Shown here: positions 82-29,011 of the stretch, in pieces
Layout of the letters: each line of letters opens with the position of its first letter
How positions within the stretch are numbered: the stretch's first letter is position 1
NCBI RefSeq assembly: GCF_023074835.1
Contig: NZ_JALLGW010000001.1
Span: forward strand, 1,674,001-1,738,000
From: Halomarina salina
GTDB lineage: Archaea > Halobacteriota > Halobacteria > Halobacteriales > Haloarculaceae
Direction: 5' to 3'
DNA length: 64,000 nt
Notes under the pieces: generated by a model
What the model was told of the DNA's origin: nothing
Databases searched by the model: none
Seen by the model: the letters and a program-made list of their open reading frames with translations, nothing else
Made by a program: the position numbers and the translations under genes

Positions 82-1859
82 TGTGTGGCATCGTCGGCTG
101 TGTCGGCCGGGACGACGAGACGCTCGCGACGCTGGTCCACGGCCTCTCGAAACTGGAGTACCGCGGCTACGACTCGGCGGGCGTGGCGCTGGTCGGGGAC
201 GACCTCGACGTGGTCAAGCGCGCGGGCGAACTCGACGACCTGCGGGCGGCGCTCGACGACTACGACATCGGCGGCCACGTCGGCATCGGCCACACGCGCT
301 GGTCGACCCACGGGCCGCCGACGGACGCGAACGCGCACCCGCACCGCGACTGCTCGGAGCGGGTCGCCGTCGTCCACAACGGCATCATCGAGAACTACGA
401 GGAACTGAAGGCCGAACTCCGCGAGGACGGCCACGAGTTCCGCAGCGACACGGACACCGAGGTCATCCCCCACCTCGTCGAGGAGCGCCTCGACGCGGGC
501 GACGACACCGAGACGGCCGTCAGAGCCGCCGTCTCGCGGCTGGAAGGCAGCTACGCGGTCGCCGTCGTCGTCGCGGGCGACGACCGCGTGTTCGCCGCCC
601 GCGAGGACTCGCCGCTCGTCCTCGGCATCGACGACGGCGCGTTCTACCTCGCCAGCGACGTCCCCGCGTTCCGGGAGTTCACCGACCGCGTCGTCTACCT
701 GGAGGACGGCGAGTTCGCCGTCATCTCCGCCGACGAGTGGCACGTCACCGACTCGGCGGGCCAGCGCCGCGAGAAGGATATCGATACCGTCGAGTGGTCG
801 CCCGAGGAGACCGGCAAGTCGGGCTACGACCACTTCATGCTGAAGGAGATCCACGAACAGCCACGCTCCCTCCGGCAGTGTCTCCGGGGGCGCGTCTCGG
901 AACTCGACGGGACGGTCGACCTCGACGTGGACGTCGACCCGGACGGCGTGCAGTTCGTCGCCTGTGGCACCTCCTACCACGCGGCGCTCTGTGGCGTCAG
1001 CCTGTTCCACGAGGCGGGTATCCCCGCACAGGCGTTCCTCGCGAGCGAGTACGCCACCTCGCCGCCGCCCGTCGACGGCGACCTCGTCATCGGCGTCACC
1101 CAGTCCGGCGAGACCGCCGACACGCTGAGTGCGCTCCGGGAGGCCAAACGCCGCGGGGCGGAGACGCTCGCCGTCACGAACGTCGTCGGGTCGTCGGTGT
1201 CCCGCGAGTGCGACCAGACGCTGTACATCCGCGCCGGTCCGGAAATCGGCGTCGCCGCGACGAAGACCTTCTCCTCGCAGGTGCTCGCGCTGGCGCTGCT
1301 CGTCCTCTCGGGGACCGGCGCGTCGCGCCAGGACGTTGCCGCGCTCCGCGACCTGCCGGGGAACGTCCAGCAGGTACTCGACGAGTCGAACGCCGAGGAC
1401 ATCGCGCGGGCGTACGACGGTTCGGACGCCTACTTCTTCATCGGCCGTGGCCTCCAGTACCCCGTCTCGCTGGAGGGCGCACTGAAGTTCAAGGAGATAT
1501 CGTACGAGCACGCCGAGGGGTTCGCCGCGGGCGAACTGAAACACGGCCCACTCGCCCTGGTCACCGAGAACACGCCCGTGTTCGCGGCCGTCACTGGCGA
1601 CGACCTGCTGGCGCGCAAGACCATCGGGAACGTCAAGGAAGTCGAGGCGCGCGACGCCCCGGTCGTCGTCGTCACCGACGGCCAGAACGACGCCGCGCGC
1701 TACGCCGACCACGTGCTGGAGGTACCGGTGAGCGACGACCGCACGGCGGCCATCCTCGCGAACGTCCAGCTACAACTCGTGGCGTACCACGCCGCCGCGC
1801 TGCTCGACCGCTCCATCGACAAGCCGCGGAACCTGGCGAAGAGCGTCACCGTGGAGTAG
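81..1859 (+). CDS. glmS: Glutamine--fructose-6-phosphate aminotransferase (isomerizing)
   Basis: Makes glucosamine-6-phosphate from fructose-6-phosphate and glutamine, the entry step to UDP-GlcNAc, in the cytoplasm. The protein starts MCGIVG, so Cys2 is the N-terminal nucleophile of the class II glutamine amidotransferase domain (about 2-215, with HTRWSTHG near 71-78). Two SIS sugar-isomerase domains follow, with CGTSYHAA and SQSGETADT in the first and the LKFKEISYEHAEGF stretch in the second. The C-terminus LAKSVTVE is the family tail carrying the catalytic Lys. At 592 residues it is full length. It overlaps the upstream nucleotidyltransferase by one base, which fits one amino-sugar operon. 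Confidence 0.97.
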   Translation: MCGIVGCVGRDDETLATLVHGLSKLEYRGYDSAGVALVGDDLDVVKRAGELDDLRAALDDYDIGGHVGIGHTRWSTHGPPTDANAHPHRDCSERVAVVHNGIIENYEELKAELREDGHEFRSDTDTEVIPHLVEERLDAGDDTETAVRAAVSRLEGSYAVAVVVAGDDRVFAAREDSPLVLGIDDGAFYLASDVPAFREFTDRVVYLEDGEFAVISADEWHVTDSAGQRREKDIDTVEWSPEETGKSGYDHFMLKEIHEQPRSLRQCLRGRVSELDGTVDLDVDVDPDGVQFVACGTSYHAALCGVSLFHEAGIPAQAFLASEYATSPPPVDGDLVIGVTQSGETADTLSALREAKRRGAETLAVTNVVGSSVSRECDQTLYIRAGPEIGVAATKTFSSQVLALALLVLSGTGASRQDVAALRDLPGNVQQVLDESNAEDIARAYDGSDAYFFIGRGLQYPVSLEGALKFKEISYEHAEGFAAGELKHGPLALVTENTPVFAAVTGDDLLARKTIGNVKEVEARDAPVVVVTDGQNDAARYADHVLEVPVSDDRTAAILANVQLQLVAYHAAALLDRSIDKPRNLAKSVTVE

Positions 1860-7163: not shown

Positions 7164-10013
7164 ATGGAGGCGACGGGGCCGCCCGCGAAGATGGTCGACC
7201 GCCGCGAGGAGCTGACGCCGATGCTCTCGCAGTACTTCGACCTCACGCAGGAGTACGACGACGCGCTGGTGCTGTTCCAGGTGGGCGACTTCTACGAGCT
7301 GTTCTGCGAGGCCGCCGAGGCGGCCGCCCGAACGCTCGAGATCACGCTGACGAAACGCGAGGACTCGACGGGCACCTACCCGATGGCGGGTGTCCCCATC
7401 GACAACGTCGCGCCGTACGTCGAGACGCTGCTGGACGCGGGCTACCGCGTCGCCATCGCCGACCAGGTACAGGACCCGTCGGAGGCGACGGGCGTCGTCG
7501 AACGCGCCGTCACGCAGGTCGTCACGCCCGGAACGGTCGTCGACGAGGAACTGCTCGGCGCGGGCAACACGTACGTCGCGAGCGTCGTCCGCGAGGCCGA
7601 CCGTAGCGAGGCCTCGAACCGAGCGGGGAGTGGAACGACCCGCGAGGCGACCGACGCCGACGACCCAGACCACCGCGAGCGGTTCGCCGTCGCGTTCGTG
7701 GACGTCTCGACCGGCGAGTTCCGCGTCACGTCGGGGCCGCGCGACGTGGTGCAGGACGAACTCGACAGGCTCGCACCCGCAGAGGTCGTCACGGCGCGGG
7801 GGGAGTTCGACCGCGACTCCCCCGACGACGCGTCGACCGACGGGAACGACGACGACGCCCCCCACGGCTTCGACGTCCGGGGGATGCACACGCCGTTTCG
7901 GGCGAGCGCGTTCGACGGCGACGACGCTCGCGAGACGCTGTCGGGGTACGTCCCGACGCCCGACGCGCTGTTCGAGCGCCCCGCGGAACTCCAGGCTGCG
8001 GGTGGGCTGCTCGCCTACGCGGAGTACACGCAGGGCGTCGACTCGGGCGGGCTGGAGTACATCTCGCGGGTCCAGCGCTACGACCCGCGCGAGGGGATGC
8101 GCGTCGACGCCACCGCCCTGCGCTCGCTGGAGGTGTTCGAGAACCGCGAGGGCGGCGACGCGCACACGCTGCTCGGCGTCCTCGACACCACGTCGTGTGC
8201 GCTGGGCCGACGCGAACTCACCCACTGGCTCCGTCGCCCGCTGCTGGACCGCGAGCGTATCGCTGCCCGACAGGACGCCGTCGAGGAACTCGCCGACCGC
8301 GCGTTCGCCCGCGAAGAAGCCCGGGACCTGCTCCGGGACGTCTACGACATCGAGCGACTCGTCACCCGCGTCTCGCGGGGCCGGGCGAACGCGCGTGACC
8401 TCCGGGCGCTGAAGGACACGCTCGACGTGATTCCGGAACTGAAGGCGGCGCTCGGCGACTGCGAGTGCGACCCGCTCCGCGAGCGCCGCGAGGCACTGGA
8501 CGAACTGGCGGACGTTCGGGGCCTCGTCGGGCGGGCCATCGTCGAGGAACCGCCCATCGAGGTGACGGAGGGCGGCGTCATCGCGGACGGCTACGACGAC
8601 GACCTGGACGACCTGCGCGCCGCGGAGCGCGAGGGTCGAGAGTGGGTCGCCGACCTCGAAGCCGGCGAGCGCGAACGCACCGGTATCGACTCGCTGAAGG
8701 TCGGCTACAACGAGGTCCACGGCTACTACATCGAGGTGACGAACCCGAACCTCGACCGGGTGCCCGACGACTACACGCGCCGCCAGACGCTGAAGAACTC
8801 CGAGCGGTTCTACACGCCCGAACTGAAGCAACGCGAGGACGAGATTCTGGGCGCGTCCGAGCGCGCCGACACCCGCGAGTACCACCTGTTCACAGAGGTC
8901 CGCGACGAGGTGGCAGCCGAGGCCGAACGCGTCCAGCGCGTCGCGTCGGTGCTCGCGGAACTCGACGTGCTCTGCACGCTGGCCGACGTCGCCGTCGACC
9001 GGAACTACGTGCGCCCGGCGTTCGGCGAGGAGGGCATCCACGTCGAGGGCGGCCGACACCCGGTCGTCGAGACGACCGAACCGCGGTTCGTCCCGAACGA
9101 TGCCGATCTCCGCGAGCGGAACGTCGCGGTCATCACGGGACCGAACATGAGCGGGAAGTCGACGTACATGCGCCAGATAGCGCTCGTACAACTGCTCGCA
9201 CAGGTCGGGAGCTTCGTCCCCGCCGACCGTGCCCGCCTGCCCGTCGTCGACCGAATCTTCACCCGCGTCGGCGCGAGCGACGACATCGCTGGCGGCGCGT
9301 CGACGTTCATGCGCGAGATGCGCGAACTGACGAGCATCCTCCACGACGCCACCGAGGACTCGCTCGTGTTGCTCGACGAGGTTGGGCGCGGCACCAGCAC
9401 CGCCGACGGGCGAGCCATCGCGTGGGCCGTCACCGAGTTCCTCCACGACGAGGTGGGCGCGACGACGCTGTTCGCCACGCACTACCACGAACTGACGCGC
9501 ATCGCCGAGAGTCGCGAACGCATCCGGAACTTCCACTTCACCATCGACCGGTCGGGCGACGAAGTCACGTTCCTGCACTCCGTCGTCGAGGGGGCCAGCG
9601 AGGCCTCGTACGGCGTCGAGGTGGCGCAGCTCGCGGGCGTTCCGGGGACGGTCATCGACCGCTCTCGTGACCTCATCGACGATGGCCTGCCCGGTGACGC
9701 CGGGTCGACGCGGACGACGGAGTCGCCGTCGGCAGCGACGAACGACGCCACGGCCGAACCGGCCGCCAGGACCAACGGCTACGGCGAGCACACCGACTCG
9801 CACACGACGCGGTCGGACGACCTCTCATCCGGAACGGACGACCGACAAATCACGCTCGACGAACCCACTGCCGGGGAAGCCGTCGCAGACGAACCGAGTG
9901 CCGCCGGCGGGTCGACGCTCGAAGCCGAGATACGGGACCTGAACATCGCGTCGATGACGCCGCTGGAGGCGCTGACGTGGCTCCACGAGCGCCAGCGGGA
10001 GGTCCAGCGATGA
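7164..10013 (+). CDS. mutS: DNA mismatch repair ATPase MutS (MutS1 type)
   Basis: Mismatch recognition protein, 949 residues. The N-terminal mismatch-reading domain has GDFYELF with Phe43 and Glu45, the Phe-x-Glu pair that stacks on and contacts the mismatched base. The ATPase domain has Walker [10 protein letters not shown] (659-667) and Walker B with the signature [14 protein letters not shown]. Connector, core and clamp domains lie between. After about residue 835 comes a low-complexity acidic Ser/Thr-rich stretch and then a short helical tail ([15 protein letters not shown]), which lengthens it beyond the usual 850-880. The ATG at 7164 fits a leaderless promoter (GGTTCAAG about 28 bases upstream). 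It overlaps mutL by four bases (ATGA). Confidence 0.96.
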
Positions 10014-11704
10014 GCGGGACGGGCGACGCCGAGGAGAGCGGGGAGCGGTCGGGGACCGTCAGGAGACTGGACGACGAGACGGTCGCGCGCATCGCGGCGG
10101 GCGAGGTGATCACTCGCCCCGCCGACGCCGTGCGCGAACTGGTCGAGAACGCGCTCGACGCGGGCGCGACCAGCGTCGGCGTCGAGGTCGAAGAGGGTGG
10201 TCTCTCCCTGATTCGCGTCACCGACGACGGTCACGGGATGAGCCGAGCGGACGCCGAGCGGGCCGTCGAGCGCCACGCCACCTCGAAGATCCGCGACGCG
10301 GCCGACCTCGAACGGACCGGCACGCTCGGCTTCCGGGGCGAGGCGCTCCCCAGCATCGCCGAGGTCGGCCGGTTCGACTGCTACACCAGCGCCGAGTCCG
10401 GGACCGGCACCCACGTCGCGGTCCGCGACGAGGTGCGCGTCGAGGCGGCGGGCCACGGCGTCGGCACGACCGTCGAGGTCCGGGACCTGTTCGGCGACCT
10501 GCCAGCGCGCCGGGAGTCACTCGGCGGCGCGAAGCGGGAGTTCGCGCGCATCAGCGACGTGCTGACGGGCTACGCGCTCGCCCGTCCCGACGTCCGGTTC
10601 CGGCTGGCTCACGACGGTCGACAGGTGCTCTCGACGCCCGGCAGCGGCGACGCCACCGAGGCGCTGCTGGCGGTGTTCGACCGGAGCGTCGCCGGGCAGA
10701 GCACGACCGTCGAGGGGTCGAGCGACGCTGGGGACCATACGGTCGCCGACGCTGCTGGCGACGTGCGCGTCTCGGGCGTCGCCTGCTACCCCTCGGTGAC
10801 GCGGGCCACAGCGAGTCACGTCCACGTCGCGGTCAACGGACGCCCGGTCGACCACGGCGACCTCCGCCGGGCCGTCGAGGCGGGCTACGGGTCGCTCCTC
10901 CCGAACTCGCGGCACCCGGTGGTCGCCCTGCGGGTGGCGGTCCCGCCCGCCCGCGTCGACCAGAACGTCCACCCCGCCAAGCGCGAGGTGCGCTTCCGTG
11001 ACCTCGACGCGGTGACGGAGACGGTCGAACGGGCGGTCGGGGAGGCGCTGACGACCGCCGACCTCTCGCGGACCGCCGCGGTGTCGTTCGACACCGACGA
11101 GGCGCTCTCCCCCGCCGAGTCGCGGTTCGACGAGCTGACCGTCATCGGCCAGTTCCGCGACCTCTACCTGCTCTGCGAGAGCGACGACGACCTGCTCGTG
11201 GTCGACCAGCACGCGGCCCACGAGCGGGTGAACTTCGAGCGACTGCGCGCAGCGGCGGGCGAGCGCGAGTCCGTCCCGCTCGACCCGCCCGCGACGCTCT
11301 CGCTGTCGGCCCGCGAGGCGGCGACGCTGGAGGCCCACTGTGAGGACCTCGCCGCCCTCGGGTTCACCGTCGAGTCGTTCGGCGGCGAGACGTACCGCGT
11401 GACGAGCGTCCCGGCCCCGGTCGGTCGGGTCGCCGACGCCACGGCCGTCCGGGACGTGCTCGATGCGTTCCTCTCGGGCGACGCACCCGACGACCCGCGC
11501 CGGGACCTGCTGGCTGACCTCGCCTGCCACCCGTCGCTGAAGGCGGGCGACACGCTCGCACCCGACGAGGCGTCGGACCTGCTCGCTCGACTCGGCGAGT
11601 GTGACCGCCCCTACGCCTGTCCGCACGGCCGACCCACCATCCTCCGCATCGACGAGTCGACGCTGGCGAAGGGGTTCGGTCGCCCGGGGACCCGCGCTGG
11701 CTGA
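10010..11704 (+). CDS. mutL: DNA mismatch repair protein MutL with endonuclease motif
   Basis: Partner of MutS, 564 residues. The N-terminal GHKL ATPase has [12 protein letters not shown] (general base Glu43), DDGHGM and GFRGEAL motifs. The C-terminal dimerisation/endonuclease domain keeps [12 protein letters not shown] from Asp399, matching the DQHA(X)2E(X)4E metal motif, plus ACHPSLKAG-like (ACHPSLK) and CPHGRP zinc/metal motifs. This is therefore a nicking-type MutL, as in MutH-less organisms. The start at 10010 overlaps the mutS stop in ATGA, so translation is coupled and the pair forms one operon. Confidence 0.96.
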
Positions 11705-17313: not shown

Positions 17314-18483
17314 ATGAGCATCCTCGTCACCGGCGGAGACGGTTACATCGGGTGGCCGACCGCACTGCGAATCGCGTCACGGACGGACGACCGAGTCGTC
17401 CTCGTCGACAACTTCGGTCGCCGCGAGTGGGTGTCGTCGGTCGGGTCGAAGAGCGCGACGCCCGTCGCCAGCATGGACGACCGTCTCGAAGCGGCCAGCG
17501 AGGTCCACGGTCTCGACAACCTCTCGTTCGTCGAGGGAGACCTGTCCGACCGCGCGGTCGTCGACGAGGTGCTGCAGGTCCACGAACCGCACACCGTCGT
17601 CCACACGGCCGCCCAGCCGAGCGCGCCGTACTCCCAGATCAACGGCGAGCGCGCGAACTTCACGCAGCACAACAACATGCAGGCCACCCGCAACCTCGTG
17701 TGGGGCCTGAAGGAGAACGACATGACGGACACGCACCTCATCGAGACGACCACCACGGGCGTCTACGGTGCGCCGTCGTTCCCCATCCCGGAGGGCGACG
17801 CGACGATGGAGAACATGGGCCAGAGCGACACCGTTCCGTTCCCCGCGATGGCCGGTAGCTGGTACCACCTGACGAAGAGCCACGACGCGGCCAACCTCCG
17901 TCTGGCGCACAAGCAGTTCGACATCCCCATCTCGGACGTGCGGACGGCCATCGTCTACGGCACCGAGACGGAGGAGACGCGCACGGACGACCGCCTCAAG
18001 ACCCGCTTCGACTTCGACTACTACTTCGGCGTCGTCGCCCACCGCTTCGCCGCGCAGGCCGTCGCCGGCTACCCGCTGACGGTGTACGGCAAGGGCGAGC
18101 AGCGCAAACCGTTCGTCTCGCTGGAGGACACCGTCGAGGGCCTCGCCCGCCTCGCACTCTCCGACGCGGACGAGCGCTCCGACGGCCACGTCGTCTACAA
18201 TCAGGTCACCAACCCCATCAGCATCGTCGGGATGGCAGAGACCATCGCCGAGGTGGCCCGCGACTTCGACTTCGACGGTGAGGTCGTACACGTCGAGAAC
18301 CCGCGCGACGAGGACGAGACCCACCAGATGGAGATCGAGAACGACCGCTACCTGTCGCTCATCGGCGAGCAGCGTCAGACGTTCGAGGAGGGCGTCCGCG
18401 ACATCTTCGAGACGCTCTCGCAGTACGAGAACACCATCGTGACCCACGAGGACCGGTTCCTCCCGAGCGTGCTGGAGGAGTAG
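17314..18483 (+). CDS. UDP-sulfoquinovose synthase-like NAD-dependent epimerase (Sqd1/Agl3 type)
   Basis: Predicted to form UDP-sulfoquinovose from UDP-glucose and sulfite, or a related reaction. The 389-residue protein matches SQD1 over its length: GGDGYIGWPTALRI at residues 7-20, the SAPYS and TQHNN blocks near 103-121, the catalytic Thr stretch TTTTGVYG, and SWYHLTKSHDA with Tyr184 and Lys188. The VYGKGEQRKPF and NPRDEDE.H motifs follow as in plant SQD1 and Sulfolobus Agl3. Identification as this subfamily is firm; the substrate is inferred. The next epimerase begins directly after its stop codon, so both are in one operon at the head of a sugar-nucleotide island. Confidence 0.82.
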   Translation: MSILVTGGDGYIGWPTALRIASRTDDRVVLVDNFGRREWVSSVGSKSATPVASMDDRLEAASEVHGLDNLSFVEGDLSDRAVVDEVLQVHEPHTVVHTAAQPSAPYSQINGERANFTQHNNMQATRNLVWGLKENDMTDTHLIETTTTGVYGAPSFPIPEGDATMENMGQSDTVPFPAMAGSWYHLTKSHDAANLRLAHKQFDIPISDVRTAIVYGTETEETRTDDRLKTRFDFDYYFGVVAHRFAAQAVAGYPLTVYGKGEQRKPFVSLEDTVEGLARLALSDADERSDGHVVYNQVTNPISIVGMAETIAEVARDFDFDGEVVHVENPRDEDETHQMEIENDRYLSLIGEQRQTFEEGVRDIFETLSQYENTIVTHEDRFLPSVLEE

Positions 18484-19410
18484 ATGGACGTCCTCGTCAC
18501 CGGCGGTCTCGGCTACATCGGCAGCGTCCTCATCCCGCTGCTCGACGGCGACGAGCGCGTCGACCGGGTCGCCGTCGTCGACAACCTCTCGCTCGGGTCG
18601 CCCCGGTCGCTGAAGGGGTCGCTCACCGACAGCGTCGACTTCCAGCGCGGCGACGTCCGCGAGTACGGCGATGTCGAGAGCGCGATGCGCGACTGCGATA
18701 CGGTGGTGCACCTCGCGGCCATCACGGGCGCGGCGAGCACCCACGACCGCCGCGAGGAGACGTTCGCGGTCAACTACGACGGCACCGAGAACGTGCTGAC
18801 CGCCGCCGGGAAACTCGGCGTCGAGAACGTCGTCCTCGCCTCGTCGTGTAACCTCTACGGTCGTGCCACCTCGACGGACCTCGACGAGACCATCGACCCC
18901 GACCCCATCAACCCGTACGCCGAGACGAAACTCGAATCGGAGGGCCTCCTCCGCGACGCGATGGACGAGTTCGGCATGGACGGCACCGCCCTGCGGATGG
19001 CGACGAACTACGGCGACTCGCCGGGCGTCCGGTTCAACCTCGTCGTCAACACGTTCGTCTTCCGCGCACTCACCGACCGCGCGCTCACCGTCTACGGCGA
19101 CGGGTCGAACTGGCGACCGTTCATCCACGTCCGGGACGCCGCCCGCGCGTACGCTCACGCCGCCCTCGAACCGGACGCCTGGGACGAGATGGTGTACAAC
19201 GTCGGGTCGAACGAGGGCAACTACCAGATATCGGAGATAGCCGAGGCCGTCAGCGAGGAGGTCGCGCCAGTCGACGTGACGTACCTCGAAGACGAGCATC
19301 CCGGCCCCTCCTACCACGTCAACTTCGACCGCATCGCCGAGACGGGCTACGAGACCGAGTGGACGCTCCGCGAGGGCATCCGGGACCTCGCCGGCGCGTT
19401 CCGGCCGTAG
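18484..19410 (+). CDS. NAD-dependent sugar-nucleotide epimerase/dehydratase
   Basis: 308 residues, extended SDR family. The Rossmann loop is GGLGYIGS at residues 7-14, the catalytic tyrosine motif is NPYAETK (YxxxK), and the GDGSNWRPFIHVRD sequence is the substrate-domain signature of UDP-glucose 4-epimerase-like enzymes. Its ATG follows the TAG of the sqd1-like gene with no gap. It probably makes or converts a second nucleotide sugar for the same glycan. Exact reaction (4-epimerase, 4,6-dehydratase or other) cannot be told. Confidence 0.88.
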   Translation: MDVLVTGGLGYIGSVLIPLLDGDERVDRVAVVDNLSLGSPRSLKGSLTDSVDFQRGDVREYGDVESAMRDCDTVVHLAAITGAASTHDRREETFAVNYDGTENVLTAAGKLGVENVVLASSCNLYGRATSTDLDETIDPDPINPYAETKLESEGLLRDAMDEFGMDGTALRMATNYGDSPGVRFNLVVNTFVFRALTDRALTVYGDGSNWRPFIHVRDAARAYAHAALEPDAWDEMVYNVGSNEGNYQISEIAEAVSEEVAPVDVTYLEDEHPGPSYHVNFDRIAETGYETEWTLREGIRDLAGAFRP

Positions 19411-19441
19411 CCGCCCGACCCCTTCTCGTTCTGGCGCAGCC

Positions 19442-20563
19442 TCACCGTCCGGTCTCGCCGCCAGGGGCGACTGCCTCCTCCACTCGGTCGGCCGTCGAGG
19501 GCGGGACGGCCCGGCCGCCGAGTCGCGTCGCCTCGTACAGTCGCGCGGCCAGCGTCACGTCGTCGGCACCCCCTCGGAGCAAGCCGGACTGGGGGTCGTA
19601 CCACCCACCGAACTGCTCGCTGAGCCAGTAGCCCACGTCCTCACCGTCGCCCAGCACTTCGAGCGCGAGGGCGTTTTCGATACCGGTCGGGTTGTAGCCG
19701 TAGGAGAACTCGTTGTCCGCGACCTGTTCCCGGTAGCGCTCGCTCCCGAGCGGTTCGAGCAGGTGGTCGACGAACCCGGACGTCCACAGCGGGTGGTCGG
19801 GCAGCGACCGCTTCAGCACCGCCAGCGCGTAGAGGACGAACGAGTGGTAGCCGACCGACCGCGGGTCGATGCGCTCGTGGTGGCCCGTCACCTGCGCGGC
19901 GAGTCGCTGGCCGACGTACCTGGGGGTGCTGTAGGGGTACCCGGAGTGGTAGACGACGCCGCTCCGGTAGGTCTCGACGGTGTCCTCCACGTCGTCGAGG
20001 AACGACACGATGCGGCGACGGACCTCGGGTGCGTCTCCGCGCCGACAGAGCAGCGACCCTGCGGCGGCGAACCAGAACTGCTGGTTGATGGTCCCGAACG
20101 GCCGCCGAACGGTCCCGTCGACGCCGACCGACCGCCAGAGCCCCGTCGACTCGTCGAACGGGTGGAGGAGGAACACCTCCTCGGCGAGCGAGCGCGGCCG
20201 CTCGTCGTCGAGGTAGCGGTCGGCGACGGCCAGCGCCTCTATCGTCCACCCCTGCCCCACCAGCCCGTTACAGCGGTCCTTCCCGGGTTCGTTCCGGTGG
20301 TGGAACGCACAGCCCTCGGGTCGCGCCTCGTCCCGACAGAGGTAGTCGATACAGTCGGCCGCGGCCGTCCGGTACCGCTCGTCGCCGGTGACCGCGTACG
20401 CCTCGAAGAACAGCACCGCCCAGTGACCCGTGTTCCGGAGGGGCGTCACGTCGTCGTCCCAGGGACCGTTGCGTCCCGCCGGCATGTGTAGCCGGTCGCC
20501 GTCGTCGAGAATCGAGACCCCCGCGTCGGCCGCCGTCGTCACGATCTCCGAGAGACGAACCAT
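19442..20563 (-). CDS. Alpha/alpha-barrel protein of glycan clusters, possibly AglQ-like
   Basis: A 373-residue soluble protein without signal peptide or membrane segment. Its regular hydrophobic helices and motifs such as NTGHWAVLFFEAY, CNGLVGQGWTIEAL, YNPTGIENALA and SYGYNP suggest a six-hairpin (alpha/alpha)6 toroid like those of glycosidases and lyases, but no classical catalytic pair is obvious to me. AglQ of Haloferax volcanii, from the N-glycosylation cluster, has a glycosidase-like fold and similar size, which with the neighbouring sugar-nucleotide genes makes AglQ-like an attractive guess. The gene faces opposite to its neighbours, and the start at 20563 begins MVRLSEIV. Confidence 0.6.
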   Translation of the reverse strand: MVRLSEIVTTAADAGVSILDDGDRLHMPAGRNGPWDDDVTPLRNTGHWAVLFFEAYAVTGDERYRTAAADCIDYLCRDEARPEGCAFHHRNEPGKDRCNGLVGQGWTIEALAVADRYLDDERPRSLAEEVFLLHPFDESTGLWRSVGVDGTVRRPFGTINQQFWFAAAGSLLCRRGDAPEVRRRIVSFLDDVEDTVETYRSGVVYHSGYPYSTPRYVGQRLAAQVTGHHERIDPRSVGYHSFVLYALAVLKRSLPDHPLWTSGFVDHLLEPLGSERYREQVADNEFSYGYNPTGIENALALEVLGDGEDVGYWLSEQFGGWYDPQSGLLRGGADDVTLAARLYEATRLGGRAVPPSTADRVEEAVAPGGETGR

Positions 20564-20736
20564 ACGTCGAGGACTGCCGTCTCGGGCTAATAGCTGAGGG
20601 CTGCACACTCTCCGTCCGTCGATGTGCGCCGTTGAACTGGGCGGGCGGCTGCCGTCCGGAGGGTCGCTCCGGTCGCTCGTCGACCCGGCCGAACGAAAGA
20701 TATAGCCGGAGTGGGAGGGTTTCGATACGTATCCAC

Positions 20737-21702
20737 ATGAGCGATGCTCCACACGTCGCCGTCACCGGTGCGGCTGGCTACATCGGCAGTCGACTGGTCG
20801 CGGACCTCCAGCGCGAGCACCCCGACTGGGAACTGACCGCGCTCGACAACTTCTACCTCGGGCAGGTCCGCCGAATCGGCGACCTCGACATCGACCACGC
20901 CGACATCCGGCACCGCGAGGAATTGGAGGAGGCCCTCGACGGCGCGGACGTGGTCGTCCACCTCGCGGCGCTCAGCGGCGTCCCCGACTGCGACGAGAAC
21001 CCGGACCGCGCCTACGAGGTGAACGTGCAGGGCACCGAGAACGTCGCCTGGTTCTGCCGGAAGACGGGGGCCGCGCTCGCGTTCCCGTTCTCGATGGCGG
21101 TCATCGGCGACCCGACGGAGTTCCCCATCACGACCGACCTCGACCGCGACCCGCTCAACTGGTACGGCCGGACGAAGGTGCTCAACGAGACGGCCATCGA
21201 GTGGTACGCCGACGGCGCGTTCCCGGCCCACGAGTTCATGGTCGCGAACCTCTACGGCGAGCACGACATCGACGGCACCACCGTCTCGAAGGGGACCGTC
21301 ATCAACTTCTTCGTCAACCGGGCGCTGGCCGGCGAGACGCTCACCGTCTACGAACCCGGCAGCCAGTCCCGCAACTTCGTCCACGTCAAGGACGTGGCGC
21401 GAGCGTTCGGCAAGAGCGTCGAGCGACTGGTCGAGCAACACGAGGCGGGCGAGACGGGCGTCGAGAAGTACGAGGTGGCGACCGACGAGGACCCCGGCGT
21501 GCGCGACGTCGCCGAGACGGTCCAGCGCATCGCTCGCGAGGAGCGCGACCTCGACCCCGACATCGAGATGGTCGAGAACCCGCGCAGCGGGGAGACGCTC
21601 GTCGACTCCTTCCCGGTCGACTGGTCTGCTGCACGCGAGCAACTGGGCTGGGAACCACAGGAGTCCGTCGAGTCGTCGATTCGCTCGCTACTCGGCGAGT
21701 GA
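20737..21702 (+). CDS. NAD-dependent sugar-nucleotide epimerase/dehydratase
   Basis: 321 residues, extended SDR. The nucleotide-binding loop is GAAGYIGS near residues 10-17, the YxxxK catalytic pair is in NWYGRTKVLNE, and VYEPGSQSRNFVHVKD is the substrate-domain signature. It is the third epimerase in the island and does not look like a recent duplicate of the other two. The start at 20737 gives the Rossmann strand at once; a TATA-like GATATAG lies about 35 bases upstream, and the palindrome GATACGTATC (20724-20733) lies just before the start. Product sugar unknown. Confidence 0.87.
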   Translation: MSDAPHVAVTGAAGYIGSRLVADLQREHPDWELTALDNFYLGQVRRIGDLDIDHADIRHREELEEALDGADVVVHLAALSGVPDCDENPDRAYEVNVQGTENVAWFCRKTGAALAFPFSMAVIGDPTEFPITTDLDRDPLNWYGRTKVLNETAIEWYADGAFPAHEFMVANLYGEHDIDGTTVSKGTVINFFVNRALAGETLTVYEPGSQSRNFVHVKDVARAFGKSVERLVEQHEAGETGVEKYEVATDEDPGVRDVAETVQRIAREERDLDPDIEMVENPRSGETLVDSFPVDWSAAREQLGWEPQESVESSIRSLLGE

Positions 21703-21800
21703 GGGGTTCTGGTTCCGCGGTTTGACGGTCACGCGCTGATCATTCTCACCAATAATTCGAGAAGTATCATGGAGGGTGACGCCGAAGGAGTGTGAGAACC

Positions 21801-22040
21801 ATGACAGGGGACGATTCAGAGGCGGTCTCGGCACTGACAGGAACCGAACGCGACGTGCTCCGTACCGCGGTCGAGGAGGGCTACTTCGACGTCCCGCGTC
21901 GTATCACGACGGCCGCACTCGCAGACCGGGTCGGCGTCGCGGACGACGAGGTCATCGTCGTCCTCCGTCGGGGGACGGCGAAGGTCCTCCGCGGGAATCG
22001 GTCGATACTCGGCCGTCCCGTCGACGAGCGTCGGTGTTGA
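21801..22040 (+). CDS. Mini HTH-10 (Bat-type) DNA-binding protein
   Basis: A 79-residue protein that is nearly only the HTH-10 domain of bacterio-opsin-activator-like regulators: LTGTERDVLRTAVEEGYFDVP, then ITTAALADRVGVADDEV and an RRGTAKVL recognition end. Usual Bat-type regulators carry a 150-residue or longer sensor in front; here it is missing. An in-frame GTG lies nine bases earlier, but GGAG at 21787-21790 with ten bases of spacing favours the ATG. The -upstream dyad TTCTC-N11-GAGAA (21743-21763) around an AT-rich TATA-like stretch could be its own operator. It sits between an epimerase and aglF, so it may regulate the glycan island. Confidence 0.75.
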   Translation: MTGDDSEAVSALTGTERDVLRTAVEEGYFDVPRRITTAALADRVGVADDEVIVVLRRGTAKVLRGNRSILGRPVDERRC

Positions 22041-22096
22041 GGAGAGTCGGCAGGCGGTCGTCTCCAGTCGTTCGTTTCGGGGGTTAGCCCGTCCGG

Positions 22097-22897
22097 TCAG
22101 GCGTCGTCCGCTTCGACGCTCAATTCGGTGTCCGCGTCCTCTTCCTCCTCGTCGTCCGCTTCCGCCGCGGCCTCGCGCGCTTCGCGCTCCTCGCGGAGTC
22201 GGCGCTCGGCGTCGTCGCGGTCCTCGGGGTAGCCCACGTCGGTCCGCCAGCCGTCCATTCGGATGGCGTCGATGGTGCGCCCGGACTGGAGCAGGAGGTT
22301 GACCGCGTCCGAGAGCTCGTACTCGTCGCGGTTCGACGGCTGGACGAGGTGGCAGGCGTGGAAGATGGCGGGCGTGAAGGTGTAGAACCCCGTCATGACG
22401 AGGTTCGTCGGCGGCTCCTCTGGTTTCTCGATGACCTCGATTATCTCGCCGTAGTCGTTCGTGTTGCAGACCCCGTACCGGGAGGCCTCCTCCCACGGGA
22501 CCTCCTCGACGAGGAAGGCGGCGTCGGCGCGGTCCTCCTGCTGGCGGTTGACGACGTCGGCGAGGTTCGCGTTGAAGATGTTGTCGCCGAGGATGAGCAT
22601 GAAGTCGTCGTCGATGTGTTCCTCGACGGTCAGCAGTGCGTGGGCCAGCCCCAGGGCCTCGCGCTGGTGGGAGTAGGTGATGGGGACGCCCTCGAACTCG
22701 TCGCCGTAGTGGCTGATGATCCGCTCTTTCAGGTAGCCGACGACGACCAGCAGTTCGTCGGCCCCGAGTTCGACGAGGTGCTCGAAACAGTGCGTGAGGA
22801 TGGGCTTGCCGTCCACCTCCACCATCGCCTTCGGCTTGTCTTCGGTCAGTGGACGGAGACGGGTCCCCTCGCCGGCGGCGAGTACGACTGCTTTCAT
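22097..22897 (-). CDS. aglF: Glucose-1-phosphate uridylyltransferase (AglF type)
   Basis: Makes UDP-glucose from UTP and glucose-1-phosphate. The N-terminus [25 protein letters not shown] is the nucleotidyltransferase signature (G-x-G-T-R, catalytic Lys). Later motifs include LGDNIF (metal-binding Asp) and [14 protein letters not shown]. 266 residues with an acidic tail of about 30 residues. In Haloferax volcanii AglF acts with AglM in N-glycan hexuronic acid formation; here aglM lies directly opposite across a shared promoter. The start at 22897 drops a five-residue in-frame upstream extension in favour of the family start. Confidence 0.88.
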
Positions 22898-22917
22898 ACT
22901 ACCTCGAATCACTACCT

Positions 22918-22932
22918 GCGGTTAAAAAGATT
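22918..22932 (-). promoter_or_regulatory. Leaderless core promoter of aglF
   Basis: On the minus strand CTTTTTAACC (plus coordinates 22920-22929) lies 23-32 bases upstream of the aglF ATG, the standard TATA position for leaderless haloarchaeal genes. Purine bases next to it could serve as BRE. Confidence 0.55.
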
Positions 22933-23021
22933 CGACACGGTTCGTAACGTTGCACCGATAGTTCACCGCGGTAGTCGGTCGCTGTGGACGGGACTGGGGC
23001 GAACGACGAGGGTAACCACCT

Positions 23022-23031
23022 CCTTACTATC
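23022..23031 (+). promoter_or_regulatory. Leaderless core promoter of aglM
   Basis: TTACTAT at 23024-23030 lies 27-33 bases before the aglM ATG at 23057, matching the expected TATA-box distance. Together with the opposite aglF promoter it makes a compact divergent control region of about 160 bases. Confidence 0.5.
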
Positions 23032-23056
23032 CCGGCTCCCCGAGTCGGTCACGACA

Positions 23057-24358
23057 ATGAACGTCTCCGTCGTCGGGAGCGGGTACGTCGGCACGAGCGT
23101 CGCCGCCTGCCTCGCTGACCTCGGCCACGACGTGGTCGCCATCGACATCGACGCCGACATCGTCGAGCGAATCAACGCGGGCGAGTCGCCCATCCACGAA
23201 CCCGGCCTCCCCGAACTCATCGAGGAGCACGCCGGGGGTCGCCTCCGCGCGACGACCGACCACGCCGCCCTGCGCGACACCGACCTCACGTTCGTCGCGA
23301 TGCAGACGCCCTCCCGGGAGGACGGCTCCATCGACCTCTCGGTCGTCGAGGCCGGGATGCGCGACGTCGGCGAGACGCTCGCCGAGAAGGACGGCTACCA
23401 CCTCGTCGTCGTCAAGTCCACCGTCCTCCCCGGCATGACCGAGGAGCGCATCGTCCCCATCCTCGAAGAGACCTCGGGCAAGACCGTCGGGGAGGACTTC
23501 GGCGTCGCCGTCAACCCCGAGTTCCAGAGCCAGGGGACGGCCGTCGAGGACTTCCTGAACCCCGACAAACTCGTCTTCGGTGCGACCGACGACCGCGGGT
23601 TCGGCCTCCTCAACGACCTGTACGACCCGCTCGTCGAGCAGGCCGACGCCGAGGCGGCCATCGTCGAGACGGGCCTCCGGGAGGCGGCGATGATCAAGTA
23701 CGCGAACAACGTCTTCCTGGCCGCGAAGCTCTCGACCATCAACGAGATAGCGAACGTCTGCAAGGAGTACGGCGTCGACTCCTACGAGGTCAGCGAGGCC
23801 ATCGGCCTCGACGAGCGCATCGGCGCGTCGTTCCTCCGCTCGGGTGCTGGCTGGGGCGGGTCGTGCTTCCCGAAGGACACCGACGCGATCCGCGCGGCGG
23901 CCCGCGAGCAGGACTACGAACCCGCCCTGCTCGACGCCGTCGTGGGCGTCAACGACCGCCAGCCGGTCCGGATGGTCGACTTCCTGGAGAAGCACGTCGA
24001 CGTCGAGGGGAAGCGCGTCGCCGTCCTCGGTCTCGCGTTCAAGCCCGGCACCGACGACATCCGCGGGTCGCGCTCGAAACTCGCCATCGAGGCGCTCGAA
24101 GAGCGCGGCGCGGACGTCGTCGCGTTCGACCCGACCGACGCCGCCGACGCGATGGCCGAGCAGTACCCCGACGTGGAGTACGTCGACAGCGCCGCCGCCG
24201 CCCTCGACGGTGCCCACGGCGCGCTCGTGATGACCGACTGGCCCGAGTTCGCCGCGCTCGACCCCGAGTTCGACGCGATGGCCGACCCCGTCGTCGTCGA
24301 CGGCCGCCGCATCATCGAGCGCCGCGAGGGTATCGTCTACGAAGGGCTGACCTGGTAA
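23057..24358 (+). CDS. aglM: UDP-glucose 6-dehydrogenase (AglM type)
   Basis: Oxidises UDP-glucose to UDP-glucuronate with two NAD+. The 433-residue protein begins with the Rossmann motif GSGYVGTS (residues 7-14), has the linker [15 protein letters not shown], the helix [19 protein letters not shown], and the active-site cysteine in [13 protein letters not shown]. The C-terminal domain has [13 protein letters not shown]. It is full length for UGD/AglM. It is divergent from aglF, which supplies its substrate, and a long in-frame upstream extension has no coding character, so the ATG at 23057 is chosen. Confidence 0.95.
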
Positions 24359-28201: not shown

Positions 28202-29011
28202 ATGAGCGCGCACGAGGCCGTCGAGGGGTTGAAGCGACTCGGACTGTCGAGCTACGAGGCTGGCGTGTTCGTCGCCCTCCAGCGTCTCGGCACCGGCACC
28301 GCGAGCGACGTGAGTCGCACCTCCGAGGTCCCCCGGTCACAGGTGTACGGCGCGGCCGAGTCACTGGCGGAGCGGGGCCTCATCGAAGTCGTCGAGAGCT
28401 CCCCCAAACGCTACCGTCCGGTCGGTCTCGACGCGGCCCGTCGACAGCTCCGCGAGCGCATCGACCGCGAGGAGGCCCGCGCGTTCGACAGTCTCGCGAC
28501 GCTCCAGGGCGAACGGGTCGAGACCGACGACGAGGGCGTGGCGACGGTGCGGGGCAGTCACGCGCTCGACGAGCGCATCGCCGAACTGGTCGGGAGCGCC
28601 GAGGAGCGCGTGATGCTCGTCGCCTGGGCGGCCGACCACGTCTCGCCGCCCATCGAGGAGGCGCTCCGGGAACGGGCCGACGCGGGCCTGACCGTCATGG
28701 TCGTCACGGAGGCCGCCGAACTCGACCGACGGCTCTCGGACGGCGGGGTGCGCGTCGTCGTCGCCCCGTCGAAACCCGCGGGCGGCGTCTCGGGCCGGAC
28801 GTTGCTCGTCGACGACGCGACGGTCCTCCTGTCGGTCCAGACCGACGCGGAGGGCGAATCGGACGGCCCCGAGACCCCCGACGAAACCGGCCTCTGGACG
28901 GCCCACAGCGACATCGGCCACATCCTCGCGCAGTTCATCCACGCCGGGATGATGTACGGCGTCGAGTCCGAGGGCGGGTGGGCGGGCGAGGACACGACGC
29001 TCGACTTCTGA
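28202..29011 (+). CDS. TrmB-family transcriptional regulator
   Basis: 269 residues. The winged helix-turn-helix at residues 5-75 reads GLSSYEAGVFVALQRLG, ASDVSRTSEVPRSQVYGAAESL and ERGLIEVVESSPKRYRPV, the TrmB layout. A short helical linker (residues 80-105) is followed by a TrmB-C-like domain with a phospholipase-D-like alpha/beta fold (VMLVAWAADHVSPPIEEAL, VVVAPSKPAGG, RTLLVDD). This domain binds sugars or related ligands in known members. It is divergent from the RND exporter and likely controls it and itself. Confidence 0.88.
   Translation: MSAHEAVEGLKRLGLSSYEAGVFVALQRLGTGTASDVSRTSEVPRSQVYGAAESLAERGLIEVVESSPKRYRPVGLDAARRQLRERIDREEARAFDSLATLQGERVETDDEGVATVRGSHALDERIAELVGSAEERVMLVAWAADHVSPPIEEALRERADAGLTVMVVTEAAELDRRLSDGGVRVVVAPSKPAGGVSGRTLLVDDATVLLSVQTDAEGESDGPETPDETGLWTAHSDIGHILAQFIHAGMMYGVESEGGWAGEDTTLDF

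Follow-up and report, generated by a model that had tools for sequence, protein, structure and literature searches.

The locus considered here raises the question of which sugar nucleotide is made by a haloarchaeal protein related to SQD1, an enzyme of sulfolipid synthesis in plants. The gene, called sqd in the following, lies in a window of 64,000 nucleotides (positions 1674001-1738000 of contig C1 in a haloarchaeal genome of 4.46 Mb) and is the first gene of an operon; together with the two epimerase-like genes that follow, galE1 and galE2, it forms what we refer to as the trio (Table 1). The initial annotation took the protein for a UDP-sulfoquinovose synthase of the SQD1/Agl3 type and regarded a sulfonated surface sugar as new or little described in haloarchaea. 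The claim of novelty is not supported, because three publications precede it. A passage of the 2006 genome paper on H. walsbyi describes an operon of SqdB and two GalE homologues as related to sulfolipid (PMC1544339), the 2015 paper on Agl3 sets the haloarchaeal sequences apart as a distant "cluster IV" (PMC4388408), and a 6-sulfo-QuiN from Har. hispanica has also been published (PMC9943897). The H. walsbyi operon and "cluster IV" represent the same gene family and operon as the trio, with the same gene order in H. walsbyi (L079), and the passages concerned present them as sulfolipid or UDP-sulfoquinovose biosynthesis, with no amino-sugar linkage mentioned there. The gene sqd is a widespread, already annotated relative of SQD1.

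Table 1. Genes of the trio region and the glmS copy of the window
Feature	Position	Strand	Description	Basis
glmS	84..1856	+	glucosamine-6-phosphate synthase; ~15 kb upstream of sqd, outside its operon	over equivalog cut-off
sqd	17314..18483	+	predicted SQD1-like NAD-dependent sulfo-sugar nucleotide synthase, 389 aa; member of the archaeal Pro101 clade	sequence, profile, tree, fold
galE1	18484..19410	+	extended SDR, conserved SSCN..YG and Y-x3-K; trio gene 2	NAD-dependent epimerase family
barrel protein	19442..20563	-	(alpha/alpha)6-barrel protein between galE1 and galE2, on the opposite strand; outside the conserved module	predicted model
galE2	~20749..21702	+	extended SDR, conserved S-M-A..G and Y-x3-K; trio gene 3, start codon uncertain	NAD-dependent epimerase family
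aglF	22097..22912	-	UTP--glucose-1-phosphate uridylyltransferase	NCBIfam NF041313, 436.8 bits (cut-off 400)
aglM	23057..24358	+	UDP-glucose 6-dehydrogenase	NCBIfam NF041297, 728.7 bits (cut-off 670)

Family and active site of the SQD1-like protein

The four SQD1 motifs on which the initial annotation relied (GGDGYIGW, TQHNN, SWYHLTK and KGEQRKPF) are all present in the protein, and its placement on the SQD1/Agl3 side of the family was borne out by sequence, predicted fold and tree. Among solved structures, SQD1 of Arabidopsis thaliana (UDP-sulfoquinovose synthase; PDB 1qrr, 1i24) is the top sequence match over the full length with an E-value of 9e-72, and the next SDR, RmlB, follows at 4e-8, which rules out a chance match of the motifs. 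An AlphaFold2 model (pLDDT 88) resembles SQD1 with a Z-score of 48.2 and an rmsd of 2.3-2.4, against at most 31.0 for other SDRs. In a tree that included the epimerases of the same genome, the protein falls inside a clade of all SQD-type sequences (support 100/100) and not among the 4-epimerases, the placement that would have refuted the initial annotation. Tree and fold together rule out an ordinary 4-epimerase. Its nearest named relative is found in Halomarina oriensis (92-93% identity), and the haloarchaeal sequences form one clade (99/98) with other archaeal members (L121, L124, L127, L128). The score against the NCBIfam equivalog NF041015 is 349 bits with a cut-off of 575, and of the two control genomes with a match, one likewise scores under the cut-off; the control genome of Haloferax volcanii gave no match to this sulfoquinovose-synthase model. 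We found no biochemical characterization of an enzyme from the archaeal clade.

At 34% identity, the protein shares with SQD1 the SAPYS and NAD motifs, and the catalytic residues Thr145, Tyr182 and Lys186 as well as His183, which follows the Tyr, are conserved in all 109 haloarchaeal loci (these overlap in part, as some genomes were obtained from both of two collections). Many further SQD1 positions are invariant across the archaeal clade. The conservation of these four residues, together with SQD1 being the closest solved structure over the whole length and with published annotations of that name, speaks for an ordinary UDP-sulfoquinovose synthase as an alternative, which would convert UDP-glucose and sulfite to the UDP-sulfoquinovose needed for glycolipid or glycan synthesis. 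The replacements described below would then represent neutral divergence, and the amino-sugar gene glmS would be a chance or general surface-sugar neighbor. We consider this unlikely, among other reasons in view of the comparison with Agl3 of Sulfolobus acidocaldarius, the UDP-sulfoquinovose synthase for N-glycans, which is likewise archaeal, belongs to the same superfamily and shares the N-glycan context proposed here, but stands in a separate clade (PMC4388408; our tree contained an Agl3-type archaeal sequence, not Agl3 itself).

In Agl3, activity is abolished by alanine mutation of His95, Arg101, Met145, Tyr182 or Lys186, and 12-15% of it remains in the E147A and Y148A variants, as reported in the mutagenesis part of that study (PMC4388408). 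According to the alignment, the essential Arg101 is replaced by Pro and the essential Met145 by Thr in 109 of 109 haloarchaeal loci, and the position of the important Glu147 is occupied by Val (103 loci), Ile (5) or Leu (1). In the alignment with SQD1 these positions correspond to Arg101, Met146 and Glu148, which are Pro, Thr and Val in the protein studied here, and the segment concerned aligns to SQD1 without gaps; His, Tyr148, Tyr182, His183 and Lys186 are retained. Identical or similar replacements occur in the non-haloarchaeal archaeal members, with Pro for Arg101 in all that were checked (L121, L124, L127, L128), although one of them (L127) retains Met at the Agl3 145 position; a further locus (L156) has Ser in place of Arg101. 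An Agl3-type archaeal sequence (L119) retains Arg, Met and Glu. In addition, UDP-sulfoquinovose synthases are characterized by the fingerprint [ST]MG in Table 1 of a 2022 review, with acid and base listed as unknown (PMC8987622), and the protein has TTG at this place.

As both this fingerprint and the Agl3 residues are absent, we describe the protein as a member of an SQD1-like subfamily and refrain from classifying it as a UDP-sulfoquinovose synthase (EC 3.13.1.1) in the strict sense. An archaeal clade whose alignment lacks residues required by the validated synthase Agl3 is a new observation of this study. The same losses would also suit an epimerase or nucleotide-sugar dehydratase working without sulfite, in which case the three SDRs would jointly make a sulfur-free deoxy or epimerised amino sugar. 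The invariance of the His after the catalytic Tyr and of the many other SQD1 positions speaks against this second alternative, which we likewise regard as unlikely.

Outside the archaea, an SQD1-like protein encoded on a Pseudonocardia plasmid (L139:8001-9149(+), 42% identity) retains Arg101, but the position of Glu147 is occupied by Lys. A cysteine synthase-family protein is encoded by the annotated gene that follows on that plasmid.

The conserved trio and its neighbors

The order was sampled with 392 genomes from 95 genera, and proteins of the sqd family were found in 162 of these genomes and 50 of the genera. Flanks of 10 kb were complete for 66 named haloarchaeal loci; in 59 of them the genes are arranged as sqd-galE1-galE2 on one strand, and the trio also occurs outside the haloarchaea in the same phylum (L124, L125, L129, L130). 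SQD1 differs in this respect, as the archaeal protein is encoded in a conserved operon with two SDRs and is linked to glmS/glmU. The formation of UDP-sulfoquinovose from UDP-glucose requires only one enzyme, and the nearly constant retention of two more SDRs beside sqd speaks against an ordinary synthase.

The initial annotation correctly described two more epimerases after sqd, aglF and aglM in the same cluster, and a lack of glycosyltransferases. Both partner proteins belong to the NAD-dependent epimerase family and keep their catalytic Tyr and Lys across relatives, and they score far under the GalE equivalog cut-off of 262 bits (113 bits for GalE1 and 94 bits for GalE2). GalE1 has an SCN motif at the place of TCE in the UDP-GlcNAc 5,6-dehydratase TunA, and GalE2 has SMA. 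The position of the active-site Cys is common to TunA and GalE1, a resemblance of motifs only, and it would suit the sulfite-free alternative. The UDP-GlcNAc 5,6-dehydratases TunA and Pen would share with the trio the 5,6-ene chemistry on UDP-GlcNAc, but they are not described as sulfite-adding, in contrast to the reading that we propose below. The proteins AglF and AglM score over their NCBIfam equivalog cut-offs (the aglM reading frame, which opens at 22349, begins upstream of the real gene, whose domain starts at 23057), and no glycosyltransferase is encoded among the genes found in 17314-24358. The adjacent aglF, as a supplier of UDP-glucose, is in line with an ordinary UDP-sulfoquinovose synthase.

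The barrel protein encoded between galE1 and galE2, listed as possibly AglQ-like in the initial annotation, matched no Pfam or NCBIfam family, and its model shows an (alpha/alpha)6 barrel similar to those of AGE epimerases and of GH76 and GH88 proteins. As the gene is rare (17 of 293 genomes) and missing in three further genomes sampled from the genus, it was dropped as a part of the system; it was probably inserted into the trio. The trio is split by this gene here and in the MAG QS_5_70_17 (L107), but not in Halomarina oriensis.

A TrmB-family regulator is encoded beside the trio in L151 (2014-2862(-)) and in 28 of the 81 neighborhoods compared, in haloarchaea as well as in non-haloarchaeal relatives, and this recurrent protein may regulate the trio. 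The TrmB-family regulator at 28202 in the window did not match the trio-linked family at the threshold used and was dropped as a candidate.

Linkage to amino-sugar and glycosylation genes

The trio is recurrently linked to genes for UDP-GlcNAc formation, which is a further new observation of this study. In 21 of the 66 haloarchaeal loci, from 14 of 35 name groups (genera, with MAG bins counted separately), glmS is located within 10 kb of sqd, and a model with two glmS copies per 3.5 Mb lets this be expected by chance in ~1.2% of loci. The computed probability of 2e-24 overstates the case, because the loci depend on one another. Gene order is inherited, so that related genera do not count as independent cases of the linkage, and glmS is in addition a housekeeping gene. 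Most haloarchaeal loci have no glmS within 10 kb. In L151, a non-haloarchaeal locus, an uninterrupted run on one strand comprises sqd, galE1, galE2 and the genes for GlmU (564 bits, cut-off 292), for another GlmU-like protein (NTase) and for GlmS (762 bits, cut-off 418). Another non-haloarchaeal locus, L153, has a run of sqd-galE-GlmU-(116-aa ORF)-NTase-GlmS with a single epimerase, whereas glmS is convergent near the end of the trio in L154, and L156 has glmS and two nucleotidyltransferases near sqd. Such common gene runs in relatives count against an ordinary UDP-sulfoquinovose synthase. The genome studied here has three glmS genes over the cut-off, two on contig C6 and one in the window; the latter is separated from sqd by 15 kb of unrelated genes, and the window alone would therefore not reveal the link.

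A second linkage concerns protein glycosylation. A 777-aa protein is encoded 48 bp downstream of the trio in two Haloarcula loci, which we take to lie on chromosome I of Har. hispanica and Har. marismortui, respectively. The Har. hispanica copy (L147:5319-7652(-)), on which the family assignment is based, matches STT3 and AglB_L1. This protein, encoded directly 3' of the trio, represents a second-type member of the STT3/AglB family, i.e., an oligosaccharyltransferase paralogue. Its relatives flank the trio in loci of other Haloarcula as well as of Natrinema, Haladaptatus and Haloquadratum.

For Har. hispanica, a 2023 article lists HAH_0486-HAH_0496 as a glycosylation cluster (PMC9943897), and judged from gene density the trio of this species is expected to lie inside it. 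The same article states, citing work from 2015, that the S-layer proteins of Har. hispanica carry an N-linked trisaccharide of 6-sulfo-QuiN, Glc and Gal, and it also reports DolP-QuiNS in this organism (PMC9943897). The sulfonated sugar on record for haloarchaea is hence an amino sugar, which counts against an ordinary UDP-sulfoquinovose synthase, and its report from Haloarcula, together with the presence of sqd in all 26 sampled Haloarcula genomes, counts against a trio that dispenses with sulfite.

A proposed route to a sulfonated amino sugar

We propose that UDP-GlcNAc and sulfite are converted by the trio to UDP-6-sulfo-quinovosamine, which would be used for surface N-glycans, and we assign a probability of about one half to this reading, in which substrate, product and sulfite donor are inferred. 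It draws on family, fold and residue changes, on the conserved operon, and on the linkage to glmS/glmU and to the oligosaccharyltransferase paralogue. By analogy to Agl3 (PMC4388408), the SQD1-like enzyme would use its bound NAD to oxidize C4 of the UDP-sugar, water would be eliminated to give a 5,6-ene, sulfite would be added at C6, and C4 would be reduced again. The substrate is most likely UDP-GlcNAc and not UDP-glucose, because of the linkage to glmS/glmU, the reported 6-sulfo-QuiN and the changed residues of the pocket. The product would be the N-acetylated UDP-6-sulfo-quinovosamine, which could act via DolP-QuiNS as donor of the 6-sulfo-QuiN in the Haloarcula S-layer. GalE1 and GalE2 may carry out a further epimerization or take a share of the dehydration chemistry. 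Against the proposed amino-sugar product counts the occurrence of the trio in Har. marismortui, since the N-glycan that Calo is said to have reported in 2011 for this species has no QuiNS.

A broader, more tentative proposal is that the whole archaeal clade constitutes a distinct class of UDP-GlcNAc:sulfite sulfo-sugar synthases (UDP-6-sulfo-quinovosamine synthases). Such enzymes, which would be present in haloarchaea as well as in other Halobacteriota, would each operate within a module of three SDRs, with GalE1, carrying the TunA-like Cys, and GalE2 sharing in dehydration, sulfonation or epimerization. If the amino-sugar reading is true, it would identify genes for the sulfonated amino sugar that has been reported from haloarchaeal S-layers, and the annotation as UDP-sulfoquinovose synthase or sulfolipid gene would have to be corrected in many genomes. 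It would also provide a second substrate for the SQD1 family, which to our knowledge is the only enzyme family that forms a sugar C-S bond from sulfite.

Searches of this genome revealed no ATP sulfurylase (PF01747) and no CysH (TIGR00434), and two CysD-like and two NirA/sulfite-reductase-like proteins were found that all score under their cut-offs, so that no clear sulfite source was found in the genome, a point against the proposed route and in favor of the sulfite-free alternative. Co-occurrence with CysH was uninformative as a test of sulfite use, as only 9 of the 392 genomes have a match. The CysD-like pair is encoded on contig C2 (L189:4762-5748 and 9540-10487(+)), and these two proteins, which lie under the NCBIfam cut-offs, perhaps act in sulfate activation.
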